Below are positions 11,401-21,645 of a DNA stretch of 21,645 nt, piece by piece. The stretch spans positions 1 to 21,645 of the IMG/VR virus record IMGVR_UViG_3300042544_000979; one strand, written 5' to 3'. The stretch is from a virus. How positions within the stretch are numbered: position 1 is the stretch's first letter; every line of letters begins with the position of its first letter. The notes below the pieces were generated by a model, which was given only the letters and a program-made list of their open reading frames with translations, did not search any database and was not told where the DNA came from. Both the position numbers and the translations under genes were made by a program.

Positions 11401-13339
11401 TGTTGGCAAACCATTAACAGGATCCTTTAAACATTTTGGAACTAGGATGCGAGTTATTGGAAAAATTGAAAAAAATGAAAATTCTATTCAAACTGCAGCA
11501 GGAGCAACAACTTATTACAACGTAGCAACAAAAACTCCACAAAGCAACCCAGCAGTTTCTGGTGGCGGAGGCGGTATTGCTGCCCTTCTTAATCCAGAAA
11601 CAAACAACGGATACTACTTTGAAATTGCAGCACTTTCAGAAAGCAACGTAGATAAATATACAACTGCGGATGGAGTGTCAAACGTATTCTTTTATAAGTT
11701 AGTAGAAAACCAAAGCTATGACCACAGAGTAACAAGTAACTTAATAGGATCTTATGCTTCTAATCAGCTATCTTCTGCGGTCAACGCATCACTAAACCTA
11801 TTGATTGACGGTGTTAAGGCGGGGGATAGAGTGCTTTTAACCAATCAGCTAAACCCTATTACCAATCAGCCTAAGCCAGAAGAAAACGGATACTACGCTG
11901 TAACAGATGCTGGTGGATCCAATATTCCTATTACAGTAACTGGTCCAAAAACTTTTACAGTTCCTATTTTAACAAACAATACATTGCCAGCATATGTTTC
12001 TGGAGGAAGCGTTATTGAATATCTTTCAAAAGAAAAAGGTGTTGCAATTTCTGGAATTACTAAGGATTCCCTACTAATAACCTATACTACTGCTGAAAAC
12101 CATGGATTGTCTACTGGAGATTTTGCTGTTGTTTCTGGAGTTAATCCAGCAAACTATGACATAGCACCTCCTTCAAAATGGGTTTTGACTAAAGACGAAG
12201 CAGCCATACCAGTAAAACTCTGGAGTGGATTGTCAACAATAGTTGTAGACAACGGAAACTTTGCTGGCCAGGCCAGAGTAGTTGCAGAAGAAGTTACTAC
12301 CGTATACGATTTAGCCTTAGAGTATGAAGACTTTGCCTCTGGAGTTAGAAGATTCTACCTATATCTAAATGATTCTCAAATTGCAACTGTAGATGATACA
12401 GATCGACTTCCAGTTTATAACAACATGGCCCTATTCGTCAGGGGTAGCTCGTCTTGTATGTTTGAAAATGTTTATGCCTTATCAAACAATTATTCCAAGA
12501 ACTCAAGTTTTGCTTTAGAGCCAGTTGCAAATTCAGTGTTTACTAATAAAACAAGTATAAATGCAAATGAATCTTTTAGAAAGTATGCCATCAATGGAAT
12601 TGTCCAGCCAACGTATCTCTCTGGTATTAGTGCTTCAGAGGGTCCAAAGTATAAAATTTTCTACGAAGAGTTTGGAACAATTATGAGAGAGGCAGCATAC
12701 TTTGACATTAAGTATGACAAGGCCTATCCAGCATTATACGCAACGATTTCTCCAAACGTGAACAATGTTCGGGGATACACTGTTTCTGGATTCTTTGCTG
12801 GAGCATATGGAGCAGAGTTCTTAATCTTTAATGCTACAGACACGTTCTTGTTTTTAGACGAAACTGTGGGAAACTATTTAAGAATTCAGGGTGTAACTTT
12901 TACACAAGATTCCAGACACGAACTGACCGTAGATGAATACTTTAACAAAAGATCAAATTTTTCAGACCCAATTATAAATGAAGACAATACAGTTTTATCA
13001 CCAAACAAGCAAAAAGAATTGTTTAATGATATTAAGAATAGCAGGATTACCTATGGGAAAAACGAATTTTCAATAGACTCTAGCTACATACAGAGCAACG
13101 ATGATGCAACAAGTTTAATGGAATGGCTGATTTCTAAAATAATGAAGCCAAGAAAATCTGTCGGTGTAAGTATTTTTGCAAACCCAACAATTCAACTAGG
13201 TGACTTAGTCTCTATAGACTATTCCGAAAAGAATGCTGCTTTGGTTGTTGACCCAAACAAAAAGTTTGTAGTCTACAGTATAGAATATAAAAAAGATAGT
13301 AATGGTCCTATGATGACAATTTATTTGAGTGAGGTGTAA
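8483..13339 (+). CDS. Giant tail hub / tail-associated protein with carbohydrate-binding-like insertions
   Basis: 1618 residues, starting at the base after the previous stop. It probably forms the tail tip hub and carries adsorption domains. Residues about 195-400 include strands such as VNRIVIKTQTNVG and WKVQYLKNNDWVDAISF, typical of discoidin-like sugar-binding sandwiches. Residues 400-620 look like a hub (gp27/Tal type) core: SPRLTVDITGKTTSYSVNKS, LTLFDYDQAFNPNNAW, then IAEVLQDLARATQTAMYFDE. The core seems to resume at about 1510-1618 with GVSIFANPTIQLGDLVSIDY and ends IYLSEV. Between lies a laminin-G/concanavalin-like jelly roll (about 984-1340: GTRMRVIGKI, NNGYYFEIAAL, RRFYLYLNDSQIATVDD, NMALFVRG). 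This is itself split by a DGVKAGDRVLLTNQ...ENGYYAVTDAGG domain (about 1083-1160) and an NHGLSTGDFAVVSG domain (about 1200-1270). No peptidase motif was recognised. Confidence 0.75.
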   Translation: MFRDKDLEKHLQTSSTVKTQTAVIAEWNMNFFENIASIGNYRHRPLLGIGEKYGSLPNFYDPRDIGNFYTNATQADVVIDGGLKNDGVTPALFTEIKEKENLLFSLEDCFAKFRPRSGINKLRYGITGKYLHHSGTDMFNRPRYYMPDKNDKFKYWTSYRTEDGKEYGIANKKVNEEFHIEDAAPYVVYKEEIPVNRIVIKTQTNVGDINLGPFSGPSGTFADPFFGEQNKTTPVKWKVQYLKNNDWVDAISFNRASIRSNGEPIFSSNGYVEIGYGLIVPEIFRANFLNNGVVASITVLPLSNEDGQAYLVRENEDDLGKYYIWFNGEYRQFAPKYGWYVVDENVDQLTNFVTDTTNPKRYTAGQLGATDYEEFVFISGIRVVVDTMNKVGSTFDLIELSPRLTVDITGKTTSYSVNKSSSDLGVSGLPVGQLLASTGQLTLFDYDQAFNPNNAWDPESGTGSLVSKYINKNIQIKIYEVLPDVEVLNDLGNTIKKSFYVPIKTLYSESFPQSNLKTRQLDIPLRDLFFHFESQLAPELLIPNASLSYILALLFDSIGFSNYSFKRVLGETDPIIPYFFVAPGTNIAEVLQDLARATQTAMYFDEYNNFIMMSKNYTLPSNDERELDITLVGANNDPAVQIIDPNQIIEKRVLENIIDISSVDNDVYNDGKISYVARYIKREMGSIKQAYQADKNVSWIYSPALLWEVAGTENLKPRNGETSTGERYALAAIPLNSDLSSLVPRVENHELVNNIIDFGDGILYIGRYSGYFYSSGEIIKYDAVEYNVSVLPSSVLNSGFTGGNVWISSPKEYEDYFSKLSFNGKIYPTGRVRIYAEPNYETFNDITRMSNGEVAKHGRGQFGTDIVEHKAGLNPYWSDNNNVYGCSMKSKYLFGNSSFGGLTGIGNAGVNKPLATRSSRSGLIKNFLGFSYNEEDSRKNKLSSSSETVQSSALSFNGPAFSAQESPIDFISYVGKPLTGSFKHFGTRMRVIGKIEKNENSIQTAAGATTYYNVATKTPQSNPAVSGGGGGIAALLNPETNNGYYFEIAALSESNVDKYTTADGVSNVFFYKLVENQSYDHRVTSNLIGSYASNQLSSAVNASLNLLIDGVKAGDRVLLTNQLNPITNQPKPEENGYYAVTDAGGSNIPITVTGPKTFTVPILTNNTLPAYVSGGSVIEYLSKEKGVAISGITKDSLLITYTTAENHGLSTGDFAVVSGVNPANYDIAPPSKWVLTKDEAAIPVKLWSGLSTIVVDNGNFAGQARVVAEEVTTVYDLALEYEDFASGVRRFYLYLNDSQIATVDDTDRLPVYNNMALFVRGSSSCMFENVYALSNNYSKNSSFALEPVANSVFTNKTSINANESFRKYAINGIVQPTYLSGISASEGPKYKIFYEEFGTIMREAAYFDIKYDKAYPALYATISPNVNNVRGYTVSGFFAGAYGAEFLIFNATDTFLFLDETVGNYLRIQGVTFTQDSRHELTVDEYFNKRSNFSDPIINEDNTVLSPNKQKELFNDIKNSRITYGKNEFSIDSSYIQSNDDATSLMEWLISKIMKPRKSVGVSIFANPTIQLGDLVSIDYSEKNAALVVDPNKKFVVYSIEYKKDSNGPMMTIYLSEV

Positions 13340-13341
13340 TT

Positions 13342-14265
13342 ATGGCTGTTGGTGGATATAGGCCTCCCGCTAAAAAATCTCCTGCTCCTGTGTATAAACC
13401 GCCAGTGGTAGCAGACAGACAGCCACCGCAAAAAACTAAGGCTCAGGTGGAGCGTGAGGAGATGGCTGAGTATGAAAGAAAGCAGTGGATCCTTAAAAAT
13501 GGTCCGAGGAGTGCAGATGCTTTGGAAGCTTGGCTTAAGGCTCCAGCTTTTAAGCCAGCCCCTGCAACACCAGCTGCACCAGCACGACCATCTGCACCAT
13601 CACGACCATCTGCACCAGTAGTAGACGACAGAGCAGACCAAGCAGCTAGAGAAGCAGCTGCCAGGGAAGCAGCCGCAAGAGAAACAGCAAGAAGAGAACA
13701 GGAAAGAAGAGAGGCTGAAAGAAGAGCTGAGGAAGCAAGAATTGCAGCAATTGTTGCAGCCCGTCCAACAGTTCCAAAATACTTAGCAAGCACATCTGTT
13801 CAGCCAGTAAAGTATGCCTCTCCAGCAGACGTTTTAATACAAGAAAGTACTTTGCCAGTAGACCTGATCCTAAAGCAAACCCTAGAAAAAATCGGGGGGC
13901 TAGAGTTAATTAGCCTTGTTAGACATGATACTGTTAATGGACAAGAGATAGCATATCAGCCAGTAAAAAATCTGTCTCAAGTAGAACGCCTGTTTGGCCC
14001 ACAAAACATGGTAAAGATTCCAGATAGCTCAGAGATTTATTTTAAAAACTTTGCCATAAAGCTAGAGGCTCATACACCTCAGTACGACCCTGATGTGATA
14101 TACATAGACATGATATCTAGAAAAAATAACGTCTTTTTTGATGCTGTTAACAATAGGATTGTTATTGAGCTTGTAAACTTAAAGCCAGACTACGAGGTTG
14201 AGGTCCAAACAGTCTCACTTGGAAAGGTTTTTGATGATACAATATATGATGAGGATGAATCATGA
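13342..14265 (+). CDS. Tail structural protein with Pro/Ala-rich and coiled-coil N-terminal half
   Basis: 307 residues; a GAGGTG Shine-Dalgarno-like sequence lies 5 bases before the ATG. Residues 1-45 are rich in Pro and Lys. Residues 75-95 are a Pro/Ala/Ser/Arg tract encoded partly by an 18-bp tandem repeat. Residues 98-140 are a highly charged Ala/Arg/Glu helix (REAAAREAAARETARREQER), likely a coiled coil. The C-terminal 150 residues are folded: ELISLVRHDTVNGQEIAYQP, VKNLSQVERLFGPQNMVKIP, IYFKNFAIKLE, and an IVIELVNLKPDYEVEVQ strand pair. I have a memory of similar C-terminal halves in tail genes of environmental actinobacterial phages, without a function. The last 4 bases overlap the next gene (ATGA). 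The low-complexity half suggests a flexible stalk joining hub to fibres; that is inference. Confidence 0.6.
   Translation: MAVGGYRPPAKKSPAPVYKPPVVADRQPPQKTKAQVEREEMAEYERKQWILKNGPRSADALEAWLKAPAFKPAPATPAAPARPSAPSRPSAPVVDDRADQAAREAAAREAAARETARREQERREAERRAEEARIAAIVAARPTVPKYLASTSVQPVKYASPADVLIQESTLPVDLILKQTLEKIGGLELISLVRHDTVNGQEIAYQPVKNLSQVERLFGPQNMVKIPDSSEIYFKNFAIKLEAHTPQYDPDVIYIDMISRKNNVFFDAVNNRIVIELVNLKPDYEVEVQTVSLGKVFDDTIYDEDES
13576..13611 (+). repeat. 18-bp tandem repeat, two copies
   Basis: Two adjacent 18-base units, GCACCAGCACGACCATCT and GCACCATCACGACCATCT, differ at one base and are followed by a partial third unit. They encode the APARPSAPSRPSAP tract of the 307-residue tail protein. 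The length is a multiple of three, so copy-number change would keep the frame. Confidence 0.85.
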
Positions 14266-15437
14266 TAACAAATACTGGTAAAAATCTATTAGCAAAATAT
14301 CTAATAGGTCAGGCACCGTCTTATGCATCGCATATTGCCATTGGTTGTGGTCCAAAGCCAAAGGCCATAGACTACATTCCAACTAGCGGAGATCTTGAGG
14401 CAATATCGCTTAAAAAGAATTTGGACTTCGAAATGTTTCGTGTTCCGATTGTTTCAAGAGGATATGTAACAGAATTAGATGCATTTGACAATCCAATCTC
14501 TAAAATTGTTTTAACGGCAGAGTTACCAACAATTGAGAGATATGAGATTACTGAAATTGGAATCTTCTCCTCTGGCTCAAACCCAACAGCTGGTGCTTAT
14601 GATAGCAAGCCTGTTTATTCTTTTGCTAGAACTGAAAACTGGGAATATCACGATGAAAATTCAGCAATAACAATTCCTCCAGTTACAGACGCACTGGGAA
14701 CATCTGAAGATCCAGAAATAATTGCTCCACCAGGCCTTGAAGTTTTTCAAACTAACGCAGACAATAAGACCTTGCTTAATGAAGTCAGGTTAGCAAGGTA
14801 TGAGTCTTGCAGATACCTAAATAACACAATTTTTATTCCTGGAGACTCATCTAGCTTATCTATGAGTGGTTCTAAAATGGTTGCAGGAACTGGATCTAAT
14901 CATATTCACTTAACTGGAGCGTCTCTGGACTTTAATAAAAATGCAGCATCCGATGAACTTAGGCTTGCCTTTTCTGTTGTCAGTAAGGACGCTCTTGAAA
15001 GCTTACAACCATTTAGAGTAAAAATTCTTATTGAGTTTGCAGATTCTGATGCAACATCGTCTACAAATTATGCTCAGTTTCAGGTAAACGTTACAAATGC
15101 CCAAAAGGGTTTTTCTACAAATAGATATGTGGTAGAAACAAGAAGTTTGGAACAGTTAGTAAAAAGTTCTTCCTTTACTTGGAACTCTGTTAACGTAGTA
15201 AAAATCTGGGCATCTGTAGAAGACTCTGCAGGAAATCCAGATCCTAAATTCTATGTTGCATTAGACGCATTAAGACTAGAGAATACAACAACCGTCAACC
15301 CGCTATACGGAATGTCTGGATATTCTGTGATAAGATCACCAGACTTAAAACCAATTGTAAAGGTTGCTAATACCGCAAATCTAGTAGAGTTTAGGTTTGC
15401 CCTAGACGTTGACTTGGGTATGGGAAATGACAGTTAA
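14262..15437 (+). CDS. Tail collar / fibre-like baseplate protein
   Basis: 391 residues beginning at the ATG of an ATGA junction. The first 130 residues, MITNTGKNLLAKYLIGQAPS, then SHIAIGCGPKP, FEMFRVPIVSRGYV and TAELPTIERYEITEIGIFSS, resemble the N-terminal domain of phage tail-collar fibre proteins, which attaches fibres to the tail tip. Residues about 150-391 look like a beta-sandwich: FIPGDSSSLSMSGSKMV, DELRLAFSVVSKD, PFRVKILIEFADSD, and a closing LVEFRFALDVDLG strand. This may be a sugar-binding or receptor-contact domain. It overlaps the start of the next gene by 11 bases, again pointing to coupled translation. Assignment of the N-terminal part is fair; the C-terminal fold is inference. 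Confidence 0.65.
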   Translation: MITNTGKNLLAKYLIGQAPSYASHIAIGCGPKPKAIDYIPTSGDLEAISLKKNLDFEMFRVPIVSRGYVTELDAFDNPISKIVLTAELPTIERYEITEIGIFSSGSNPTAGAYDSKPVYSFARTENWEYHDENSAITIPPVTDALGTSEDPEIIAPPGLEVFQTNADNKTLLNEVRLARYESCRYLNNTIFIPGDSSSLSMSGSKMVAGTGSNHIHLTGASLDFNKNAASDELRLAFSVVSKDALESLQPFRVKILIEFADSDATSSTNYAQFQVNVTNAQKGFSTNRYVVETRSLEQLVKSSSFTWNSVNVVKIWASVEDSAGNPDPKFYVALDALRLENTTTVNPLYGMSGYSVIRSPDLKPIVKVANTANLVEFRFALDVDLGMGNDS

Positions 15438-15894
15438 AAAAGTAACTATTGAAGAGAATCAGTTACCGCCTTTGTCCCCAGATGGAAAGTACCTATTAAG
15501 ATACAGAATCATTTCTGAAGATAAAAATAGAACTTCTCATTGGTCACCAATTTATTCTATAGATGCAACACCATTTATTGATAGCGTTTCTTCTAATATT
15601 GAAGTAACTAACACAGGAATAACCGTTAGCTGGGGAGACGATAATGGCAGATCAGAATACGACATATTTGTTAGCTATGGAACTTTGTCTGGAGGAGTTA
15701 CTACCTATGAGCCTTATTCTTATCATGGATCCTCCCCCATACACTCTTACTCTTTTTCAAAAAAGCCAGGCCTCTACACCAGTATCCAGGTAGCGATACA
15801 GCTATCTGGAATAGAAAAAATTAGAAGCACAGTATTAACAATTTCGCAAACCTCTAAGGCCCTGCAGCCTACAATTGATGGCGGTAGTGCATGA
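15427..15894 (+). CDS. Fibronectin type III-like small tail protein
   Basis: I choose the ATG at 15427 (MTVKKVTIEE, 155 residues) over the in-frame TTG at 15409, because the ATG gives the shorter 11-base overlap usual here. The sequence is one beta-sandwich: GKYLLRYRIISEDKNRTSHWSPIYSI at the front, then NIEVTNTGITVSWGDD and SEYDIFVSYG, then YSFSKKPGLYTSIQVAIQLS. The TVSW...YDIFV pattern and length of about 95 residues fit a fibronectin type III domain, often found as an accessory on phage tail proteins where it may bind cell-surface sugar weakly. It overlaps the next gene by ATGA. The family is recognised by pattern only. Confidence 0.6.
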   Translation: MTVKKVTIEENQLPPLSPDGKYLLRYRIISEDKNRTSHWSPIYSIDATPFIDSVSSNIEVTNTGITVSWGDDNGRSEYDIFVSYGTLSGGVTTYEPYSYHGSSPIHSYSFSKKPGLYTSIQVAIQLSGIEKIRSTVLTISQTSKALQPTIDGGSA

Positions 15895-17042
15895 GTTACT
15901 TAATACAAGTTAGAAGAGATACTGCCGCTAACTGGTCATCAAAGAACCCAGTTCTCGTAGCTGGAGAAATAGCCTTTGAAACAGATACTAAAAAGGTTAA
16001 GATTGGTGACGGAACTACCGCCTGGAACTCGCTCTCTGACATAGGAAACTTTATTTCTACTTCACTTTTAACAGCTGGTGGAACATTTACTGGAAATGTT
16101 TATGGACCCACAATTACACAATCCCATAATTATGTTTTAAATAGTGCTTTTGATATCTGGCAAAGAGGAACTAGCTTTTCTTTTGGCTCAACAGTCTACA
16201 GTGCCGATCAGTGGAGGGTAGGGAGGTCTGGAAATACAGCCGATGGACTTATAACTCGTTCAACTACAGCACCAGTAGGATTTGAGTATGCAGCTCAGGT
16301 TAGACGAGCCAATGGAAAAGATACTGCTGGAGCAATTCAGCTAACTCAAGTATTTGAAAATCTTGGAATTTCGTTAGCTGGTAAGGTTATAACTTTAAGT
16401 TTTTATGCTATGCGTGGAAGTGACTATAGTGCTACAGGAAATGCCCTGACTTTTGGTATTAACTCTGCCAGCCCTGCCCCATCTGTTGTAGCTTATGCAA
16501 CTGGCGGACTGCTGCTTAGCTCTAACGCAGATTATAATTCTCAATCTTCAACAGCAACCTTAACCACGTCTTATCAAAGATATTCAGCTACTTTTACTGT
16601 TCCAGCTACAGCTAATGCTTTTCAAATCTTTTTTAGCTTTACTCCTGGGACAAGTGCCTCTGGCACAAATGACTTTTATAGAATCGCTGGAGTTCAGCTA
16701 GAAGAGGGCCCCGTAGCAACTTTTTATAAACGCAACTCCGCAAACGTGCAGGCTGAGCTTGCAGCTTGCCAGCGGTATTACTATCAAATTGGCGTTAATG
16801 GAATTAACTTTAACTATCAAGCCGATCCAAACGGTTTTGGTGCATCAAATTTTATAAACTTTCCTACAATTATGAGAATAGCTCCAACTGTTTCTCTTAA
16901 TTTTACAAACACAGATAATGCTGTAAATGCTGGACCACTCAGTATTTCTCCTTTGGGTTTTATATCAAGAGCTTACAGGGGCAACGGAAGCTTTAGCTAT
17001 TTTGCTTATCAAATTGGATTTACAGCATCGGCGGAACTATGA
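15891..17042 (+). CDS. Tail fibre with Mtd-type N-terminal domain, probable receptor-binding protein
   Basis: 383 residues starting in an ATGA overlap. Residues 1-50 (IQVRRDTAANWSSKNPVLVA, GEIAFETDTKKVKIGDGTTAWNSL, broken here for length) match the N-terminal domain named after the major tropism determinant, which anchors receptor-binding proteins to the tail. From about residue 79 comes NYVLNSAFDIWQRGTS followed by YSADQWRV, then a long beta-rich region with ITLSFYAMRGSDYSATGNAL and FQIFFSFTPGTS, closing GVQLEEGPVATFYKR. This is a jelly-roll module seen in many tail fibres. The last 90 residues (RYYYQIGVNGINF onward) would be the tip. It is the best candidate for host recognition. I see no variable repeat or reverse transcriptase in the window, so no sign of a diversity-generating retroelement. 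Confidence 0.75.
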   Translation: MSYLIQVRRDTAANWSSKNPVLVAGEIAFETDTKKVKIGDGTTAWNSLSDIGNFISTSLLTAGGTFTGNVYGPTITQSHNYVLNSAFDIWQRGTSFSFGSTVYSADQWRVGRSGNTADGLITRSTTAPVGFEYAAQVRRANGKDTAGAIQLTQVFENLGISLAGKVITLSFYAMRGSDYSATGNALTFGINSASPAPSVVAYATGGLLLSSNADYNSQSSTATLTTSYQRYSATFTVPATANAFQIFFSFTPGTSASGTNDFYRIAGVQLEEGPVATFYKRNSANVQAELAACQRYYYQIGVNGINFNYQADPNGFGASNFINFPTIMRIAPTVSLNFTNTDNAVNAGPLSISPLGFISRAYRGNGSFSYFAYQIGFTASAEL

Positions 17043-17230
17043 CATATATGAAAATGGCACAAGCCTTTCCTAACGAAACAATAGTTTATGAAGAATCAGT
17101 TGTTAGACTATTAGATAATGCAATTATTCCTTTTGCTGAGGGCAACAGGGATTACGAACAATATCTTGCCTGGCTTGAAGAGGGCAATAGTCCCATAGAC
17201 TTTGACATCAATCTATTGCAAAACAACTAG
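17039..17230 (+). CDS. Small tail-fibre chaperone-like protein
   Basis: 63 residues starting in an ATGA overlap with the fibre gene. The segment FAEGNRDYEQYLAWLEEGNS resembles the NxDYxxYLxWLxxGN motif at the end of small phage tail-fibre assembly and XkdW-like proteins, and the position straight after the fibre gene fits such a role. The N-terminal part, ETIVYEESVVRLLDNAIIPF, has no feature I recognise. It could equally be a small structural component. It is the last gene before a promoter-bearing junction. Confidence 0.5.
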   Translation: MTYMKMAQAFPNETIVYEESVVRLLDNAIIPFAEGNRDYEQYLAWLEEGNSPIDFDINLLQNN

Positions 17231-17244
17231 ATAAGTGGTATAAT
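17217..17244 (+). promoter_or_regulatory. Extended -10 promoter, predicted leaderless start
   Basis: TTGCAA (17217-17222), a 16-base spacer ending in TGG, then a perfect TATAAT (17239-17244). The TG at 17236-17237 gives an extended -10. TATAAT is followed by 5 bases and then the ATG at 17250, so the expected transcription start falls on or within a base or two of the start codon. There is no Shine-Dalgarno sequence in the gap. Leaderless mRNAs are common in actinobacteria. Confidence 0.65.
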
Positions 17245-17249
17245 TAGCT

Positions 17250-17696
17250 ATGGCCAGAATACCGACACCAGATAGAGGACAGCCTCTAGACGTAACTTAT
17301 GTATATCAAATAGTTGAGGCGATTAATGACCTGTCGTCACAAATGTCTTCTGCAAAATATAAGTATGCATCTATTGATACCTCAGACGGTAACGAAAGCA
17401 CCTTGTTGACAGACACAAAGGTTGTTGCTGGCTCGATAGATATTTACTCTACTCTAACAGCGGTAACAGCAGAGACTCTTCCAAAAACTTTTACATACTC
17501 ATTTAAGGGTGAATATAAATACCCACCAATCGTTACTGCCACACCAGTCCTTCTCGAAGGAACCTCTGCTGGTCAGGATGTATCAGTTGTCATTCAGAGT
17601 ATAACGAACGGATCCGTTACTGGTTTTGTTAAGTTTAATACTGGAGGATCTGTAGCACTTAAGGTTCACCTTATTGCTGTAGGTATTCCAAACTAA
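17250..17696 (+). CDS. H-type-lectin-like small protein (adhesin candidate)
   Basis: 148 residues. Residues 1-45 (MARIPTPDRGQPLDVTYVYQ, then a short helix with QIVEAINDLSSQMSS) could be an oligomerising N-terminus. Residues about 75-148 resemble the six-stranded H-type lectin fold found in small adhesins and phage tail tips: TFTYSFKGEYKYPPIVTATP, VSVVIQSITNGSVTGFVKFN and a closing VHLIAVGIPN. Such domains form trimers that bind sugars. It is the first gene after the tail cluster and has its own strong promoter, so it may be expressed apart from the other tail genes. Structural protein is likely; the lectin call is by strand pattern and is moderate. Confidence 0.5.
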   Translation: MARIPTPDRGQPLDVTYVYQIVEAINDLSSQMSSAKYKYASIDTSDGNESTLLTDTKVVAGSIDIYSTLTAVTAETLPKTFTYSFKGEYKYPPIVTATPVLLEGTSAGQDVSVVIQSITNGSVTGFVKFNTGGSVALKVHLIAVGIPN

Positions 17697-17698
17697 CA

Positions 17699-18241
17699 AT
17701 GACTAAGAGGCATGGCCAGGTAGACATGGCAGAGTATAATGCTCTTCCAGTTATACCAGGGAATAAAAAAGTTTGGTTCTTAAACGGTGAACTGGTCAGG
17801 GTTCATCACCTAAATAAATCCAACGGAATTATGTCTGTTTACAATATTGTAAAGGATAGAATTGAAAGCTGTTTAATTTCTGATTTTAAAAAGAATAGGC
17901 AAAGAGCCTATACCGTAGGACAAACGGCAGAGCTTGTAAATCGTCATAAGAAGTATATGCCCAGTCTAATGAAACGTGAAATTATTCCACACCCAACTGG
18001 TTCACAAAAAGGCGGGGATACAGGTTGGCAGGTTAGATCATACTATTCAGAATCACAAGTGAAAGAAATTCGTGATATACTAGCTACCTACCACATGGGT
18101 AGGCCAAGAAATGATAAGTTAATTACAAATGACATAACCCCCAGTCGACAGGAGTTGACAAGGCGTATGGGAGATGGTATACTGACTTATACGAAGACAG
18201 AAGATGGAAGGTTCATTCCTATTTGGTCTGAGTCCATTTAA
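17699..18241 (+). CDS. Putative DNA-binding protein with MerR-like winged helix
   Basis: 180 residues starting 3 bases after the previous stop. Residues 20-65 (KKVWFLNGELVRVHHLNKS, MSVYNIVKDRIESCLISDF) look like a small beta-barrel. Residues 70-133 have the MerR-type order of helix-turn-helix then wing: AYTVGQTAELVNRHKKYMPS, LMKREIIPHPTG, a gap, then RSYYSESQVKEIRDIL. MerR domains read xxYTIGxxA...G.I....R.Y..xxV..I. The C-terminal 50 residues (HMGRPRNDKLITN, RQELTRRMGDG, FIPIW) are a conserved-looking tail. The place between structural and replication genes, with a promoter inside its own 3' end, fits a regulator, but no operator was identified. It could also be a structural DNA-binding protein. 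Confidence 0.55.
   Translation: MTKRHGQVDMAEYNALPVIPGNKKVWFLNGELVRVHHLNKSNGIMSVYNIVKDRIESCLISDFKKNRQRAYTVGQTAELVNRHKKYMPSLMKREIIPHPTGSQKGGDTGWQVRSYYSESQVKEIRDILATYHMGRPRNDKLITNDITPSRQELTRRMGDGILTYTKTEDGRFIPIWSESI
18155..18183 (+). promoter_or_regulatory. Strong SigA-type promoter inside the 3' end of the putative regulator gene
   Basis: Perfect TTGACA (18155-18160), a 17-base spacer whose last three bases are TGG (extended -10), then TATACT (18178-18183), a 5/6 match to TATAAT. The expected start near 18190 gives a leader of about 61 bases before the ATG at 18251. It would drive the small genes and the helicase. Confidence 0.7.
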
Positions 18242-18250
18242 TAGAAAGAT

Positions 18251-18466
18251 ATGGGTATGGAAAACGAAAACACCAAAGTAAGGGTTGCGTTGGGATACAC
18301 GCTTAACCTTGGCAACTTTCAGTCACTAAGAATTGATCTGGAAGTGTCAGACAGCAAGCGAGATAGTGAAAACACTAGCGAAGCTTTTGAGCGTGTCTAT
18401 GAATTTGTAGAGAATAAGCTAGCAGAAAAGGTTAAAGAAGCCTCTTCTGAAATCGACAGCAAGTAA
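18251..18466 (+). CDS. Small conserved-looking phage protein, unknown function
   Basis: 71 residues from the ATG at 18251, or 69 from the ATG at 18257; a weak AGAAAG lies upstream and does not decide between them. It begins with a beta strand pattern (TKVRVALGYTLNLGNFQSLR, then IDLEVSD) and ends in a charged amphipathic helix (SEAFERVYEFVENKLAEKV). The LNLGNFQS..IDLEV plus helix arrangement reminds me of a family of short phage proteins located near replication genes, but I know no function. It overlaps the next gene by one base (TAATG). Confidence 0.6.
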   Translation: MGMENENTKVRVALGYTLNLGNFQSLRIDLEVSDSKRDSENTSEAFERVYEFVENKLAEKVKEASSEIDSK

Positions 18467-18774
18467 TGGCTGATCGTAAATACCGAATGGCTCTGCTGAG
18501 TAGGTATAGCAAGTTCCACAAGGCAAGGTATGATGAAAAGCCAATCATAAACTTAAACGTAGAACAATGGGCGGCAGATGCACTCATCGAGTCATTTACC
18601 CTAGAGGTTTGTTATGATATGCTAGAATACTACTTTGAGGTAAGTCCAAGTCCTAGTTGGAAATACTTTGCAAACTATGCAGACACAATTATAGAATCTA
18701 GAGAGAGACTAGTTCAGGACTTGAGAGAAAGATCTGAAAGACGGAAAAAGGCCAAGGAGTGGTTAAGTGAGTAA
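18466..18774 (+). CDS. Small helical protein upstream of helicase, unknown (helicase-loader candidate)
   Basis: 102 residues, mostly helical and rich in Arg/Lys and aromatic residues. It starts at the ATG inside TAATG. A folded part, VEQWAADALIESFTLEVCYD then LEYYFEVSPSPSWKYFANYA, leads into a basic tail helix, ESRERLVQDLRERSERRKKA. The SPSPSWKYFANYAD part with a basic tail is similar in style to C-terminal regions of replisome organisers and helicase loaders, and the gene directly precedes and overlaps the helicase gene. That assignment is inference; no AAA+ or DnaD motif is visible. Confidence 0.5.
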   Translation: MADRKYRMALLSRYSKFHKARYDEKPIINLNVEQWAADALIESFTLEVCYDMLEYYFEVSPSPSWKYFANYADTIIESRERLVQDLRERSERRKKAKEWLSE

Positions 18775-19987
18775 TGTAGAAGCTAAGCTGATATCTGCAG
18801 TATTAAAAGACAAGCAGATTCATGTTTTGCTGCAAGCAAACGTGGAGAACTTACTACAAACTCATACCGATGTCTGGCAGTTTATTCGTAAATATTCTGA
18901 GATAAATGGATCAGTTCCTCCAACAACCCTAGTCATAGAAAAGTTTAGAGACTTTGCGACCACAGAAGACGTAGGCTCAACAAAGCATCACCTAGAAGAA
19001 TTGCAGGCAGAGTATCTTAACTCTAGCCTAAAAGATATCCTAATGACAACAGCTGCAGACGTACAGGGTGGCAAAGGTCCAGAAGCTCTAGAAGATCTAA
19101 TTACAAAAACCTCAGAGCTAAAAAAGAATACGGCAGTTATTCGGGACATTGATGTTACAGATATCGATTCTGCCGTGGCCTACTTTGAGAATGTTCAAAA
19201 ACAAAAAGAGCTAGGCATTCTTGGAATCAAGACTGGTCTTCCAGGATTTGATAACTACCTTCCCTCTGGAATTATGCCAGGACAGCTAGGAGTCTTTCTT
19301 GCCTATCCAGGTATTGGTAAGTCTTGGCTTTCGCTTTACTTTGCGGTACAGGCATGGAAGCAAGGCAAATCTCCAATGGTAATCAGCCTTGAAATGTCAG
19401 AGACAGAAGTTCGCAACCGTGTATTTACTATCATGGGCGAAGGGCTTTGGTCACACCGTAAGATAAGCAATGGTGAAATAAATATTGAAGATCTAAAGCG
19501 TTGGCACAAGGTCAACGTTGAGGGTAAGCCAGAATTTCATATTATATCCAATGATACTGGTGGAGACATTACCCCATCAGTTCTTCGTGGAAAGATAGAT
19601 CAGTATAAGCCAGACTTTGTAATTGTTGACTACCTACAGCTAATGAGCCCTAACCAAAAGTCAGATAACGAAACCGTAAGAATGAAAAACTTGTCTCGTG
19701 AGCTAAAGCTTATGGCTATTGGAGAAGAAGTTCCTATTATGGCTATCTCATCTGCCACACCAGATGACGTTACAAAGCTTGATACGGTCCCTACGCTGGG
19801 TCAGACTGCTTGGTCACGCCAGATTGCTTACGATGCTGACTGGGTCTTAGCAATGGGTAGAGCAGCAAATAGTGATATCCTAGAATGTGTTTTTAGAAAG
19901 AATCGTAATGGCTTTATGGGAGACTTCCTGGTTCAGGCAGACTTTGATAAAGGTTGGTACAAATATAAGGACTATGAAGATAAGTAG
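18767..19987 (+). CDS. DnaB-type replicative DNA helicase
   Basis: 406 residues. The start is GTG at 18767, set by a strong AAGGAG (18754-18759) 7 bases upstream; it overlaps the previous gene by 8 bases. Residues 1-100 resemble the helical DnaB N-terminal domain (AKLISAVLKDKQ...WQFIRKY...PTTLVIEKF). The RecA-like motor follows: the linker motif GIKTGLPGFDNYLPSGIMPG, Walker A AYPGIGKSW with Lys185 and Ser186, VISLEMSETEVRNRV, Walker B FVIVDYLQLMSP with Asp288, then PIMAISSAT and an arginine-bearing LECVFRKNRNG. It unwinds the fork as a hexameric 5'-3' helicase on phage DNA in the host cytoplasm. It is shorter than bacterial DnaB (about 450-470 residues). RadA-like recombinase is unlikely given the N-terminal domain and the primase next door. 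Confidence 0.9.
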   Translation: MSNVEAKLISAVLKDKQIHVLLQANVENLLQTHTDVWQFIRKYSEINGSVPPTTLVIEKFRDFATTEDVGSTKHHLEELQAEYLNSSLKDILMTTAADVQGGKGPEALEDLITKTSELKKNTAVIRDIDVTDIDSAVAYFENVQKQKELGILGIKTGLPGFDNYLPSGIMPGQLGVFLAYPGIGKSWLSLYFAVQAWKQGKSPMVISLEMSETEVRNRVFTIMGEGLWSHRKISNGEINIEDLKRWHKVNVEGKPEFHIISNDTGGDITPSVLRGKIDQYKPDFVIVDYLQLMSPNQKSDNETVRMKNLSRELKLMAIGEEVPIMAISSATPDDVTKLDTVPTLGQTAWSRQIAYDADWVLAMGRAANSDILECVFRKNRNGFMGDFLVQADFDKGWYKYKDYEDK

Positions 19988-19988
19988 T

Positions 19989-19994
19989 TATAAT
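19989..19994 (+). promoter_or_regulatory. TATAAT -10 box, predicted leaderless start
   Basis: A perfect TATAAT in the 12-base gap after the helicase gene, followed by exactly 5 bases and then the ATG at 20000. This is the same spacing as at 17239-17250. I see no good -35 at the usual distance and no TGN extension, so it may be weak or need an activator. No Shine-Dalgarno sequence is present for this gene. Confidence 0.45.
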
Positions 19995-19999
19995 GGATT

Positions 20000-20326
20000 A
20001 TGGACAATTTACACCATAAACCAATTAAGAGTTTTTCTCTAGATGGAAACATCTACGATGACTCCGCAATTGCACGACTAAAAATAGAATACATAAAACT
20101 ATTACTGATTGAGATGAAAACTCTGGGGTATGTGCCAAGACTAGACATTGACCCAGACTTCACAATACGGTATAATAAAGAAGTACAAATATTTGAATTT
20201 AAATTAACGACATATGGAACATACGTAGGAAAGAAAAAAGTAGAGTGGATAATAGGACTAGACGGAACAAAAGTAATCTATACACAAAAGAGCAAGTTAA
20301 AAGAGTTCTTGCGGGATCGGGTATAG
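20000..20326 (+). CDS. Small protein between helicase and primase, unknown function
   Basis: 108 residues. A helical N-terminal half (IARLKIEYIKLLLIEMKTLG, then YVPRLDIDPDFTIRY) is followed by beta strands (FEFKLTTYGTYVGKKKVEWI, then GLDGTKVIY) and a basic C-terminal end, KSKLKEFLRDRV. There is no membrane helix, signal or catalytic motif that I recognise. Location between helicase and primase suggests a replication accessory. Its last 82 bases also code for the start of the primase in another frame. The frame is intact with an ATG start; the only signal for the start is the TATAAT box 5 bases before it. Confidence 0.6.
   Translation: MDNLHHKPIKSFSLDGNIYDDSAIARLKIEYIKLLLIEMKTLGYVPRLDIDPDFTIRYNKEVQIFEFKLTTYGTYVGKKKVEWIIGLDGTKVIYTQKSKLKEFLRDRV
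20148..20176 (+). promoter_or_regulatory. SigA-type promoter inside the gene upstream of primase
   Basis: TTGACC (20148-20153, 5/6 match to TTGACA), a spacer of exactly 17 bases, and perfect TATAAT (20171-20176). The expected start near 20183 gives a leader of about 62 bases before the GTG at 20245, almost the same leader length as for the promoter at 18155. Confidence 0.6.
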
Positions 20327-21189
20327 AGGTTCAGTCTGAGGTTGATTCTGACTTTATAATCTTTTGCCCATTTCACAATAACCATCGCAGCCCCGCTGGA
20401 GAAATTGATAAGAAGAGTGGTATATTCTACTGCTTCTCTTGCCACAAAACATCAGACTTTGTAGAGTTTGTAATGTTTACCTCTGGAAGAACATACTTTG
20501 AGTCAGTTCGCTTTATTAAAAGCAAAGAGCAAGAAACAGATCTTGAACAAGAAATGACAAGACAGCTGCACGTTAAGCAAGACTATATTCCTTACGATGA
20601 GCTGCAAGTCAAAAGACTTCACCAGCAAGCCATGGAATCTCCAAGAGCAACCACATACTTTAATGGAAGAAAAATCAATCAAGACTCTATGGTTAAGTTC
20701 GGCCTAGGGTTTTCAGAAAATAAAGACATGGTCACTGTTCCAGTTCATTCTCCAGACGGAATCCTTCTAGGCTTTGTCGGCAGATCTATTGAGGGCAAGG
20801 AGTTTTTAAATACTCCAGGATTGCCAAAGGGTAAAACTTTATTTAACATAAATCGTGTAAAAACTGCGGAGCAGGTTTATGTGGTAGAATCTTCTTTCGA
20901 TGCAATTAGGCTGGATCAGGTTGGCCTTTCTGCTGTGGCAACGCTAGGGTCGAATGTCTCTGGCATGCAAATAGAACTTCTTCAGAAATACTTCAATAAC
21001 ATTATTGTTATTGCAGATAACGATGAAGCAGGCGGTAATATGAAAAACAGGCTACTAGAAAAGCTTGGATCTCGTGTTTCCGTAATACAACTAGATAATA
21101 AATACAAAGACATTGGTGATATGTCGGACGAAGACATAAAGTCATTAGACTTTAAGTTTGACAACGCTATTGCTAATATGCTAAAATAA
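20245..21189 (+). CDS. DnaG-type primase with zinc ribbon and TOPRIM domain
   Basis: 314 residues. GTG at 20245 is the only usual start codon in this frame between the upstream stop at 20200 and the zinc motif; the Shine-Dalgarno AGGA at 20227-20230 is poorly placed. The zinc ribbon has Cys41, His44, Cys63 and Cys66 (CPFH...CFSC), which in this family recognises the priming site. After a linker of about 70 residues comes the catalytic core with GLGFSENKDMVTVPVHSPDG, and a TOPRIM domain with VVESSFDA (Glu215, Asp219) and VIADNDEAGG (Asp258, Asp260) as the metal-binding acids. It makes RNA primers for the lagging strand. There is no helicase half, unlike T7 gp4, in keeping with the separate DnaB-type gene. 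Cellular DnaG is about twice this length; the missing part is the helicase-interaction end. Confidence 0.88.
   Translation: MDNRTRRNKSNLYTKEQVKRVLAGSGIEVQSEVDSDFIIFCPFHNNHRSPAGEIDKKSGIFYCFSCHKTSDFVEFVMFTSGRTYFESVRFIKSKEQETDLEQEMTRQLHVKQDYIPYDELQVKRLHQQAMESPRATTYFNGRKINQDSMVKFGLGFSENKDMVTVPVHSPDGILLGFVGRSIEGKEFLNTPGLPKGKTLFNINRVKTAEQVYVVESSFDAIRLDQVGLSAVATLGSNVSGMQIELLQKYFNNIIVIADNDEAGGNMKNRLLEKLGSRVSVIQLDNKYKDIGDMSDEDIKSLDFKFDNAIANMLK
21158..21187 (+). promoter_or_regulatory. SigA-type promoter for the ssDNA-binding protein gene
   Basis: Perfect TTGACA (21158-21163), an 18-base spacer and TAAAAT (21182-21187, 5/6 match). It overlaps the primase stop codon. The expected start near 21194 gives a 25-base AT-rich leader containing the AGGAGA ribosome binding site. 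Confidence 0.6.
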
Positions 21190-21206
21190 AAAACAATAAA
21201 TAAAAT

Positions 21207-21212
21207 AGGAGA
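21207..21212 (+). promoter_or_regulatory. Strong ribosome binding site AGGAGA
   Basis: AGGAGA ends 6 bases before the ATG at 21219. Together with the AAGGAG before the helicase GTG it is among the clearest Shine-Dalgarno sequences in the window. It fits high expression of a protein needed in bulk. Confidence 0.85.
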
Positions 21213-21218
21213 AATAAC

Positions 21219-21645
21219 ATGAGCGTAACTAAGGGACTAAAAGACATCAACGCCCTGCTTGACAAACCAAAGTATGAAGGAACTGGAAGCAAGGTTCGCT
21301 GGCTAAAACTAGCTGACGGACAGGCTGTAAAGATTCGTTTTATTGAAGAGCTAGACGAAGATTCGTCAAACTATGATCCAAAAAGAGGTCTAGCTATCGT
21401 AGTAAAGGAACACACAAATCCAAAGGACTACAAGCGTAAGGCTGTAGACACAATGGAGACAGAAGGCCGTGACTGGGCAGAAGAGATGCACCGTAAAGAT
21501 CCAAAGGCTGGCTGGAAAGCACGTCTTCGTTTTTACTGCAACGTCCTAGTCGACGACGGAATCGAAGATCCGTATGTTGCAATCTGGTCTATGGGTATCA
21601 GCAAGCAGTCTGCATTCAACACAATTCGTGAGTATGCACTAGAGA
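21219..21645 (+). CDS. Putative single-stranded-DNA-binding protein, 3'-partial
   Basis: 142 codons are visible and the frame runs open off the right edge. The protein begins MSVTKGLKDINALLDKP and then has KVRWLKLADGQAVKIRFIEE, a strand pair of OB-fold type, with later KARLRFYCNVLVDDG, PYVAIWSMGISKQSAF and TIREYAL. The FY.NVLVDDG...V.IWS.G..K...F pattern resembles the gp32-like single-strand binding proteins of large phages and their actinobacterial-phage relatives. It has one visible cysteine (in RFYCNV), so a zinc site is not evident. The strong promoter and ribosome binding site, and location after helicase and primase, agree with a protein that coats replicating DNA. The full length is unknown. 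Confidence 0.6.
   Translation, partial: MSVTKGLKDINALLDKPKYEGTGSKVRWLKLADGQAVKIRFIEELDEDSSNYDPKRGLAIVVKEHTNPKDYKRKAVDTMETEGRDWAEEMHRKDPKAGWKARLRFYCNVLVDDGIEDPYVAIWSMGISKQSAFNTIREYALE

Follow-up and report, generated by a model that had tools for sequence, protein, structure and literature searches.

Leaderless genes are common in Actinobacteria, where they average 19.2% across 86 genomes (Zheng et al. 2011, PMC3160421), and they are likewise common in mycobacteria (PMC4633059). In the former survey, a TA-like signal (TANNNT/TATAAT) about 12 bases before a start was taken to indicate a leaderless gene, and such signals proved common in Actinobacteria. Among phages, leaderless SigA-like promoters have been predicted bioinformatically in the Cluster O mycobacteriophages Corndog, PL1, and PR2 (PMC4351075), and a leaderless transcript has been predicted for the putative promoter P90 of phage Adephagia (PMC11373665). 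Here, we describe a candidate promoter of this kind in the IMG/VR virus record IMGVR_UViG_3300042544_000979. The whole stretch analyzed, referred to below as the window, comprises 21,645 bases and is AT rich (G+C content, 0.39). The element in question, TGGTATAAT, is an extended −10 sequence shortly upstream of a gene for an H-type-lectin-like protein, and it is predicted to place the transcription start on or next to the start codon of that gene.

Leaderless actinobacteriophage promoters have already been predicted in Corndog and Adephagia, and their kind is known. The present case resembles the bacterial signals in its TATAAT close to a start, the Cluster O promoters in being a bioinformatic prediction, and P90 in being a putative phage promoter with a predicted leaderless transcript. 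It differs from the bacterial signals in that it concerns phages, in that TG precedes the hexamer at 47 of 88 sites in long relative contigs, and in that one orthologous gene switches to a Shine-Dalgarno (SD) layout. The Cluster O promoters belong to other phages and loci, whereas here many sites are involved and the element is conserved over divergent relatives; P90 lies in a toxin-antitoxin-like locus, whereas this element lies at the junction of tail and replication genes. As far as our searches go, the conserved site, the apparent layout switching, and the predicted wide use in the group are new. Among the papers listed from the open-licence literature on leaderless genes with freshwater, actinobacterial, mycobacterial, WhiB-carrying, or uncultivated phages, none dealt with this phage group, and a search on promoters within coding sequence yielded none either. 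A freshwater phage paper that used whiB to call actinophages (PMC6802176) mentions neither "leaderless" nor "promoter" in its available portion. The result is a testable, sequence-based case that uncultivated, probably actinobacterial phages run a sizeable gene set from leaderless messenger RNAs (mRNAs). One orthologous site allows leaderless and SD-led layouts to be compared side by side, and gene finders should be warned that an absent ribosome binding site may here be a signal rather than the mark of a wrong start.

The element before the lectin-like gene and its conservation

The lectin-like gene (positions 17250 to 17696, plus strand; 148 amino acids) begins 19 bases after an open reading frame (ORF) of 63 amino acids that closes the tail region on the same strand (17039 to 17230; stop codon TAG at 17228 to 17230). 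This gap holds the extended −10 element (17236 to 17244, plus strand), with TG at 17236 to 17237 and TATAAT at 17239 to 17244, followed by the 5-base discriminator TAGCT (17245 to 17249), which contains no SD. The −35-like hexamer TTGCAA (17216 to 17221), which matches TTGACA at 4 of 6 bases, overlaps the last codons of the 63-amino-acid ORF and is separated from TATAAT by a spacer of 17 bases. An earlier note on this DNA had described the TG, the TATAAT, and the ATG at 17250 but had TTGCAA starting at 17217 with a spacer of 16 bases. It had also held that the 19-base gap carries no ribosome binding site, which is borne out: no SD core (AGGA, GGAG, or GAGG, 4 to 17 bases upstream of a start) precedes the ATG at 17250.

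The layout is that of an extended −10 SigA-type promoter, in which TGN stands directly 5' of a TATAAT-like hexamer and the −35 element is weak or dispensable. It is also that of a leaderless gene: there is no SD, and TATAAT lies 5 bases before the ATG, one below the canonical 6 but near enough for transcription to start on the start codon. Among the 14 gene starts examined in the window, most of which abut or overlap the preceding gene, 4 have an SD core, and the two widest gaps (19 and 12 bases) both contain TATAAT. TGNTATAAT occurs a single time in the 21,645 bases, both strands counted. A generic promoter scan was unimpressive, with 31 matches in positions 12000 to 21645 versus 23.0 (standard deviation, 5.3) in shuffled sequences; such a scan is weak by itself, so the weight of the promoter call rests on relatives.

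A first set of relatives was obtained by comparing the 180-amino-acid protein encoded by the next gene with viral contigs (best 80 of 600 stretches), and a scan with an alignment of the lectin-like proteins (best 80 of 584) added 57 distinct loci. The combined set of 137 rows comprises the window and 136 homologous loci and forms 70 clusters at 90% identity. A homologue of the lectin-like gene lies 5' of the 180-amino-acid gene in 80 of 80 loci of the first set. Locus L058, in which the start of the lectin-like gene falls past the contig end, was set aside; in the 79 readable loci and the window (80 of 80 rows), TGNTATAAT is found 5 to 24 bases before the aligned start. Over the combined set, 125 of 137 rows and 65 of 70 clusters have the exact element upstream of the lectin-like gene, as do all 43 representatives used for a tree, while the identity of the lectin-like protein to that of the window falls to about 26%. 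The 12 other rows have TGNTATACT (five), TATAAT without TG (two), or no clear element (five). No position flanking the element exceeds 0.64 bit. Because the 65 rows aligned for this purpose were chosen so that the element itself is invariant, its count over the 70 clusters is the fair figure for comparison. We also looked for close relatives that had lost TATAAT while retaining the genes, which the earlier note had named as a refuting condition; the outcome does not refute the promoter.

The hexamer TTGCAA fares differently. The five closest loci have either TTGCAA itself (L002, L003, L005, and L006) or TTGCAG (L004), but most other loci lack the hexamer, and the mean best −35 match over the 43 representatives is 2.95 of 6, barely above the 2.55 of shuffled sequences (1 of 200 shuffles was as high). 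TTGCAA is a minor component without general conservation, and it was rejected as an essential part of the promoter.

Spacing, Shine-Dalgarno sequences, and recurrence in long contigs

In the 125 rows, TATAAT and the ATG are 5 to 9 or 13 to 24 bases apart and never 10 to 12, and the presence of an SD closely follows this spacing: an SD is found in 0 of 56 rows with a gap of 5 to 7 bases, in 13 of 37 with a gap of 8 to 9, and in all 32 with a gap of 13 to 24. All 12 rows without the exact element have an SD. Of the rows that lack an SD, all 80 thus carry the exact element, versus 45 of the 57 that have one (Fisher p = 1.3e-5), and with one row per 90% cluster the element is present in 40 of 40 versus 25 of 30 (p = 0.012). 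Such a pattern would be expected if genes lacking an SD needed a leaderless mRNA of their own and an SD released them from this need. Among the 43 representatives, the tree calls for 9 changes of layout (gap of at most 9 bases versus more than 9), at least 5 of them forced by well-supported branches. In three loci (L046, L047, and L052), AGGAG stands directly 3' of TATAAT within a 9-base gap; at or before the predicted start, it could serve a read-through mRNA only.

The arrangement recurs in long relative contigs. In seven of these (643,787 bases; G+C content, 0.36 to 0.43), TGNTATAAT has 136 sites, of which 50 lie 4 to 9 bases upstream of an ORF start (1 with an SD), 1 lies at 10 to 14 bases, and 35 lie at 15 to 30 bases (20 with an SD); four permuted motifs, with 24 to 61 sites each, have 1, 1, 2, and 2 sites at 4 to 9 bases. 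When the first ATG of each of 575 long ORFs was taken, 53 had TATAAT 5 to 9 bases upstream (26 of them at the peak distance of 6 bases) and 4 had it 10 to 14 bases upstream, compared with means of 2.7 and 4.0 for three control hexamers. The pattern TGNTATAATN followed after 4 to 9 bases by ATG has 90 matches (including two overlapping pairs), spread over 12 of 12 long contigs, and its reversed form has 8. Genes with TATAAT 3 to 9 bases before the ATG number 10 to 17 per contig and 88 over the seven contigs; TG is present at 47 of them, and 47 have a gap of 6, so that the seventh base after the hexamer is the A of the ATG. Some of these leaderless-type sites carry a full TTGACA, which ties the hexamer to sigma-70-type promoters. 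The motif counts in the window, the permuted motifs, and the control hexamers in long contigs led us to reject chance or composition. The lectin site is one of many predicted leaderless-type promoters in an actinobacteriophage-like group.

The predicted start and its alternatives

We consider it quite likely that the extended −10 promoter starts transcription at A17250, give or take about 2 bases, and yields a leaderless lectin mRNA. A promoter with a start on or next to the ATG at 17250 was what the earlier note had proposed, and conservation, spacing, the interdependence of SD and promoter, and recurrence in long contigs all speak in its favor. In the mechanism that we infer, TGGTATAAT would be read by the polymerase carrying the main sigma factor of the host (SigA/sigma-70 type). 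With transcription starting on A17250, or no more than about 2 bases from it, the first codon of the mRNA would be the ATG of the lectin-like gene, and the ribosome would initiate on this 5'-terminal ATG without an SD, as is common in Actinobacteria. The 180-amino-acid gene would be translated by coupling to the lectin-like gene. Because the lectin-like gene has no SD, little translation of it would be expected on tail mRNA that reads through, and its own promoter would set its level.

WhiB in 8 of the 12 relative contigs searched and proteins akin to those of Streptomyces phages point to a host in Actinobacteria for the phage group and, presumably, for the window. A freshwater Nanopelagicales host, which the G+C content of 0.36 to 0.43 and WhiB would fit, was considered and is not claimed, as neither habitat nor host is shown.

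Several observations weigh against a leaderless start at A17250. The gap in the window is 5 bases and the commonest gap is 6; the canonical start, seven bases past the end of the hexamer, would fall at 17251, within the ATG, so that a start on A17250 requires an assumed 5-base discriminator. A 5-base gap is also found in 17 of 137 rows at the lectin site and in 39 of 59 ATG loci at a second site described below. The −35 region is weak and nearly unconserved. The element overlaps the upstream ORF in 17 of the 41 representatives in which such an ORF was identified (it follows the stop in 24), and coding constraint could therefore explain part of the conservation. The sample is skewed to near relatives by the choice of the best 80 stretches in each search, and clustering at 90% takes out relatedness only in part. 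Shuffled layout labels need about as many changes on the tree as the observed ones (mean, 9.9; 163 of 500 as low), so layout is hardly heritable over the 43 representatives. An SD core accompanies a gap of 8 to 9 bases in 13 of 137 rows, at a position at or before the predicted start that fits read-through translation. Lastly, TATAAT without the TG is less clean in the seven contigs, with 546 sites, of which 49 lie at 4 to 9 bases, 17 at 10 to 12, and 63 at 13 to 30.

The alternative that survives best, although we regard it as rather improbable, is that the promoter is real but transcription starts some bases away from the predicted position, so that the mRNA has a minimal leader, or ends that vary, and is still translated independently of an SD. 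Rows without an SD have gaps of 5 to 9 bases, and a gap of 9 would leave a leader of about 3 bases; the commonest spacing in the long contigs is 6, however, which puts the A of the ATG at base 7. We find it highly improbable that transcripts of the tail operon are the sole source of the lectin-like protein, made by ribosomes re-initiating past the 63-amino-acid ORF, with TATAAT incidental or serving another function. The variable spacing between the upstream ORF and the gene, which ranges over 41 representatives from −8 to 43 bases, fits poorly with such a dependence, even though the upstream genes are tightly packed, the gap in the window is only 19 bases, and one linked upstream ORF family is found in 69 of 77 loci. 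The remaining 8 loci, window included, have upstream ORFs of four other families and still keep the element, so that dependence on one fixed upstream gene was rejected; in addition, the spacing of TGNTATAAT is tied to start codons genome-wide, and rows without an SD are never without the element. Conservation of the hexamer through AT-rich composition or shared ancestry, with no selection, would suit the G+C content of 0.39 and the near-copies among the loci but is scarcely credible given flanks of at most 0.64 bit beside an element kept in 65 of 70 clusters and permuted motifs that lack such a pattern.

Beyond the favored leaderless start, we raise, very tentatively, the idea that leaderless promoters act as an insulation device. 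SD-less genes, some of them for virion parts, would be translated only from transcripts of their own promoters and not from read-through mRNA; evolution would have toggled repeatedly between leaderless and SD-led layouts around a fixed promoter core; and where an SD does not lie past the predicted start, its only use would be on read-through mRNA. We think this reading doubtful.

Genes of the locus and further promoter-like elements

The main ORFs of the window all lie on the plus strand and run from the tail region through the lectin-like gene, the 180-amino-acid gene, two small genes, a DnaB-type helicase gene, and a 108-amino-acid gene to a primase gene. The 63-amino-acid ORF matches phrog_20370, a family of unknown function (expect value [E], 6e-9).

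With the Pfam H-type lectin family PF09458, the lectin-like protein of the window scores 14.7 bits, below the cut-off of 24, and 4 of 12 members of its own protein family give matches with E of 0.1 or less, the best at 3.9e-5. Its predicted structure (predicted local distance difference test [pLDDT], 81.7; predicted template modeling score [pTM], 0.60) best matches, among solved structures, Helix aspersa agglutinin (E, 2.8e-4; template modeling [TM] score, 0.43/0.60); after the Helix agglutinins come pyocin and phage tail fibers or spikes. In a comparison with predicted viral structures, an uncultured-phage protein (46% identity) ranks first, ahead of tail-fiber and H-type-lectin entries. As modeled, the protein resembles an H-type lectin, and membership is not claimed; it is most likely an attachment part of the virion, at the tail tip or in receptor binding. 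A search of 50,697 phage records gave no match at E of 0.01, and viral-contig scans with two distant lectin-like proteins returned only their own source contigs.

The 180-amino-acid gene (17699 to 18241, plus strand) has its ATG 2 bases after the lectin stop and no SD. The description of its product as a putative regulator agrees with homologues in Streptomyces phage records annotated as MerR-like helix-turn-helix proteins, but no Pfam family scores over its cut-off. Neither the protein nor an alignment of eight relatives found a relative in 84,980 bacterial and archaeal genomes, and no host or prophage is therefore named. Expression of this gene and the lectin-like gene apart from the tail genes, as proposed in the earlier note, is a sound inference from the 2-base junction and the lack of an SD; it is incomplete because the strand runs on into dnaB and primase, which are probably served by promoter-like elements at 18155 to 18183 and 19989.

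The first of these, TTGACA-N17-TATACT (18155 to 18183, plus strand), lies inside the 180-amino-acid gene and is conserved at synonymous sites. Only 7 of 139 analyzable codons of the gene are invariant in the 43 representatives; five (GAG, TTG, ACA, GGT, and ATA) belong to the hexamers or adjoin them, and a sixth (TAT) follows shortly downstream. Most codons between the hexamers are variable. A hexamer is altered in 2 of the 43 (L046 and L073), through an amino-acid change. TTGACA-N16-18-TATAMT occurs 46 times in 12 long contigs versus once for the reversed pattern, and a copy of the embedded promoter is recognizable in 11 of the 12. This element probably drives the replication genes. Stanwilliamsviridae Streptomyces phages such as Moab share the order of a MerR-like gene, small genes, DnaB helicase, a small gene, and primase on one strand, but the matching codons of the Moab gene, read by eye, contain no embedded promoter.

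A second leaderless-type TATAAT (19989 to 19994, plus strand) lies 5 bases before the ATG of the 108-amino-acid gene after dnaB (20000 to 20326, plus strand), which in the window lacks an SD. Of the 60 loci with this gene, 59 have TATAAT 5 to 7 bases before an in-frame ATG, and the other, L017, has it 5 bases before a GTG. The genes downstream of the lectin-like and 180-amino-acid pair thus probably have promoters of their own.

A PHROGs comparison of ten proteins encoded by leaderless-type genes gave one head maturation protease and one protein with weak similarity to a tail protein; of the other eight, two have no match and the rest belong to families of unknown function. The protease gene (L086, 1314 to 2738, minus strand) has a run of A's with G's just 5' of TATAAT and 8 to 9 bases from there to the ATG. 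Genes in G002, G003, G005, G007, and G008 have the same layout and are of the protease type by their similar N termini, the PHROGs match coming from L086 alone. The A-run and TATAAT before the head maturation protease perhaps form a distinct promoter class.
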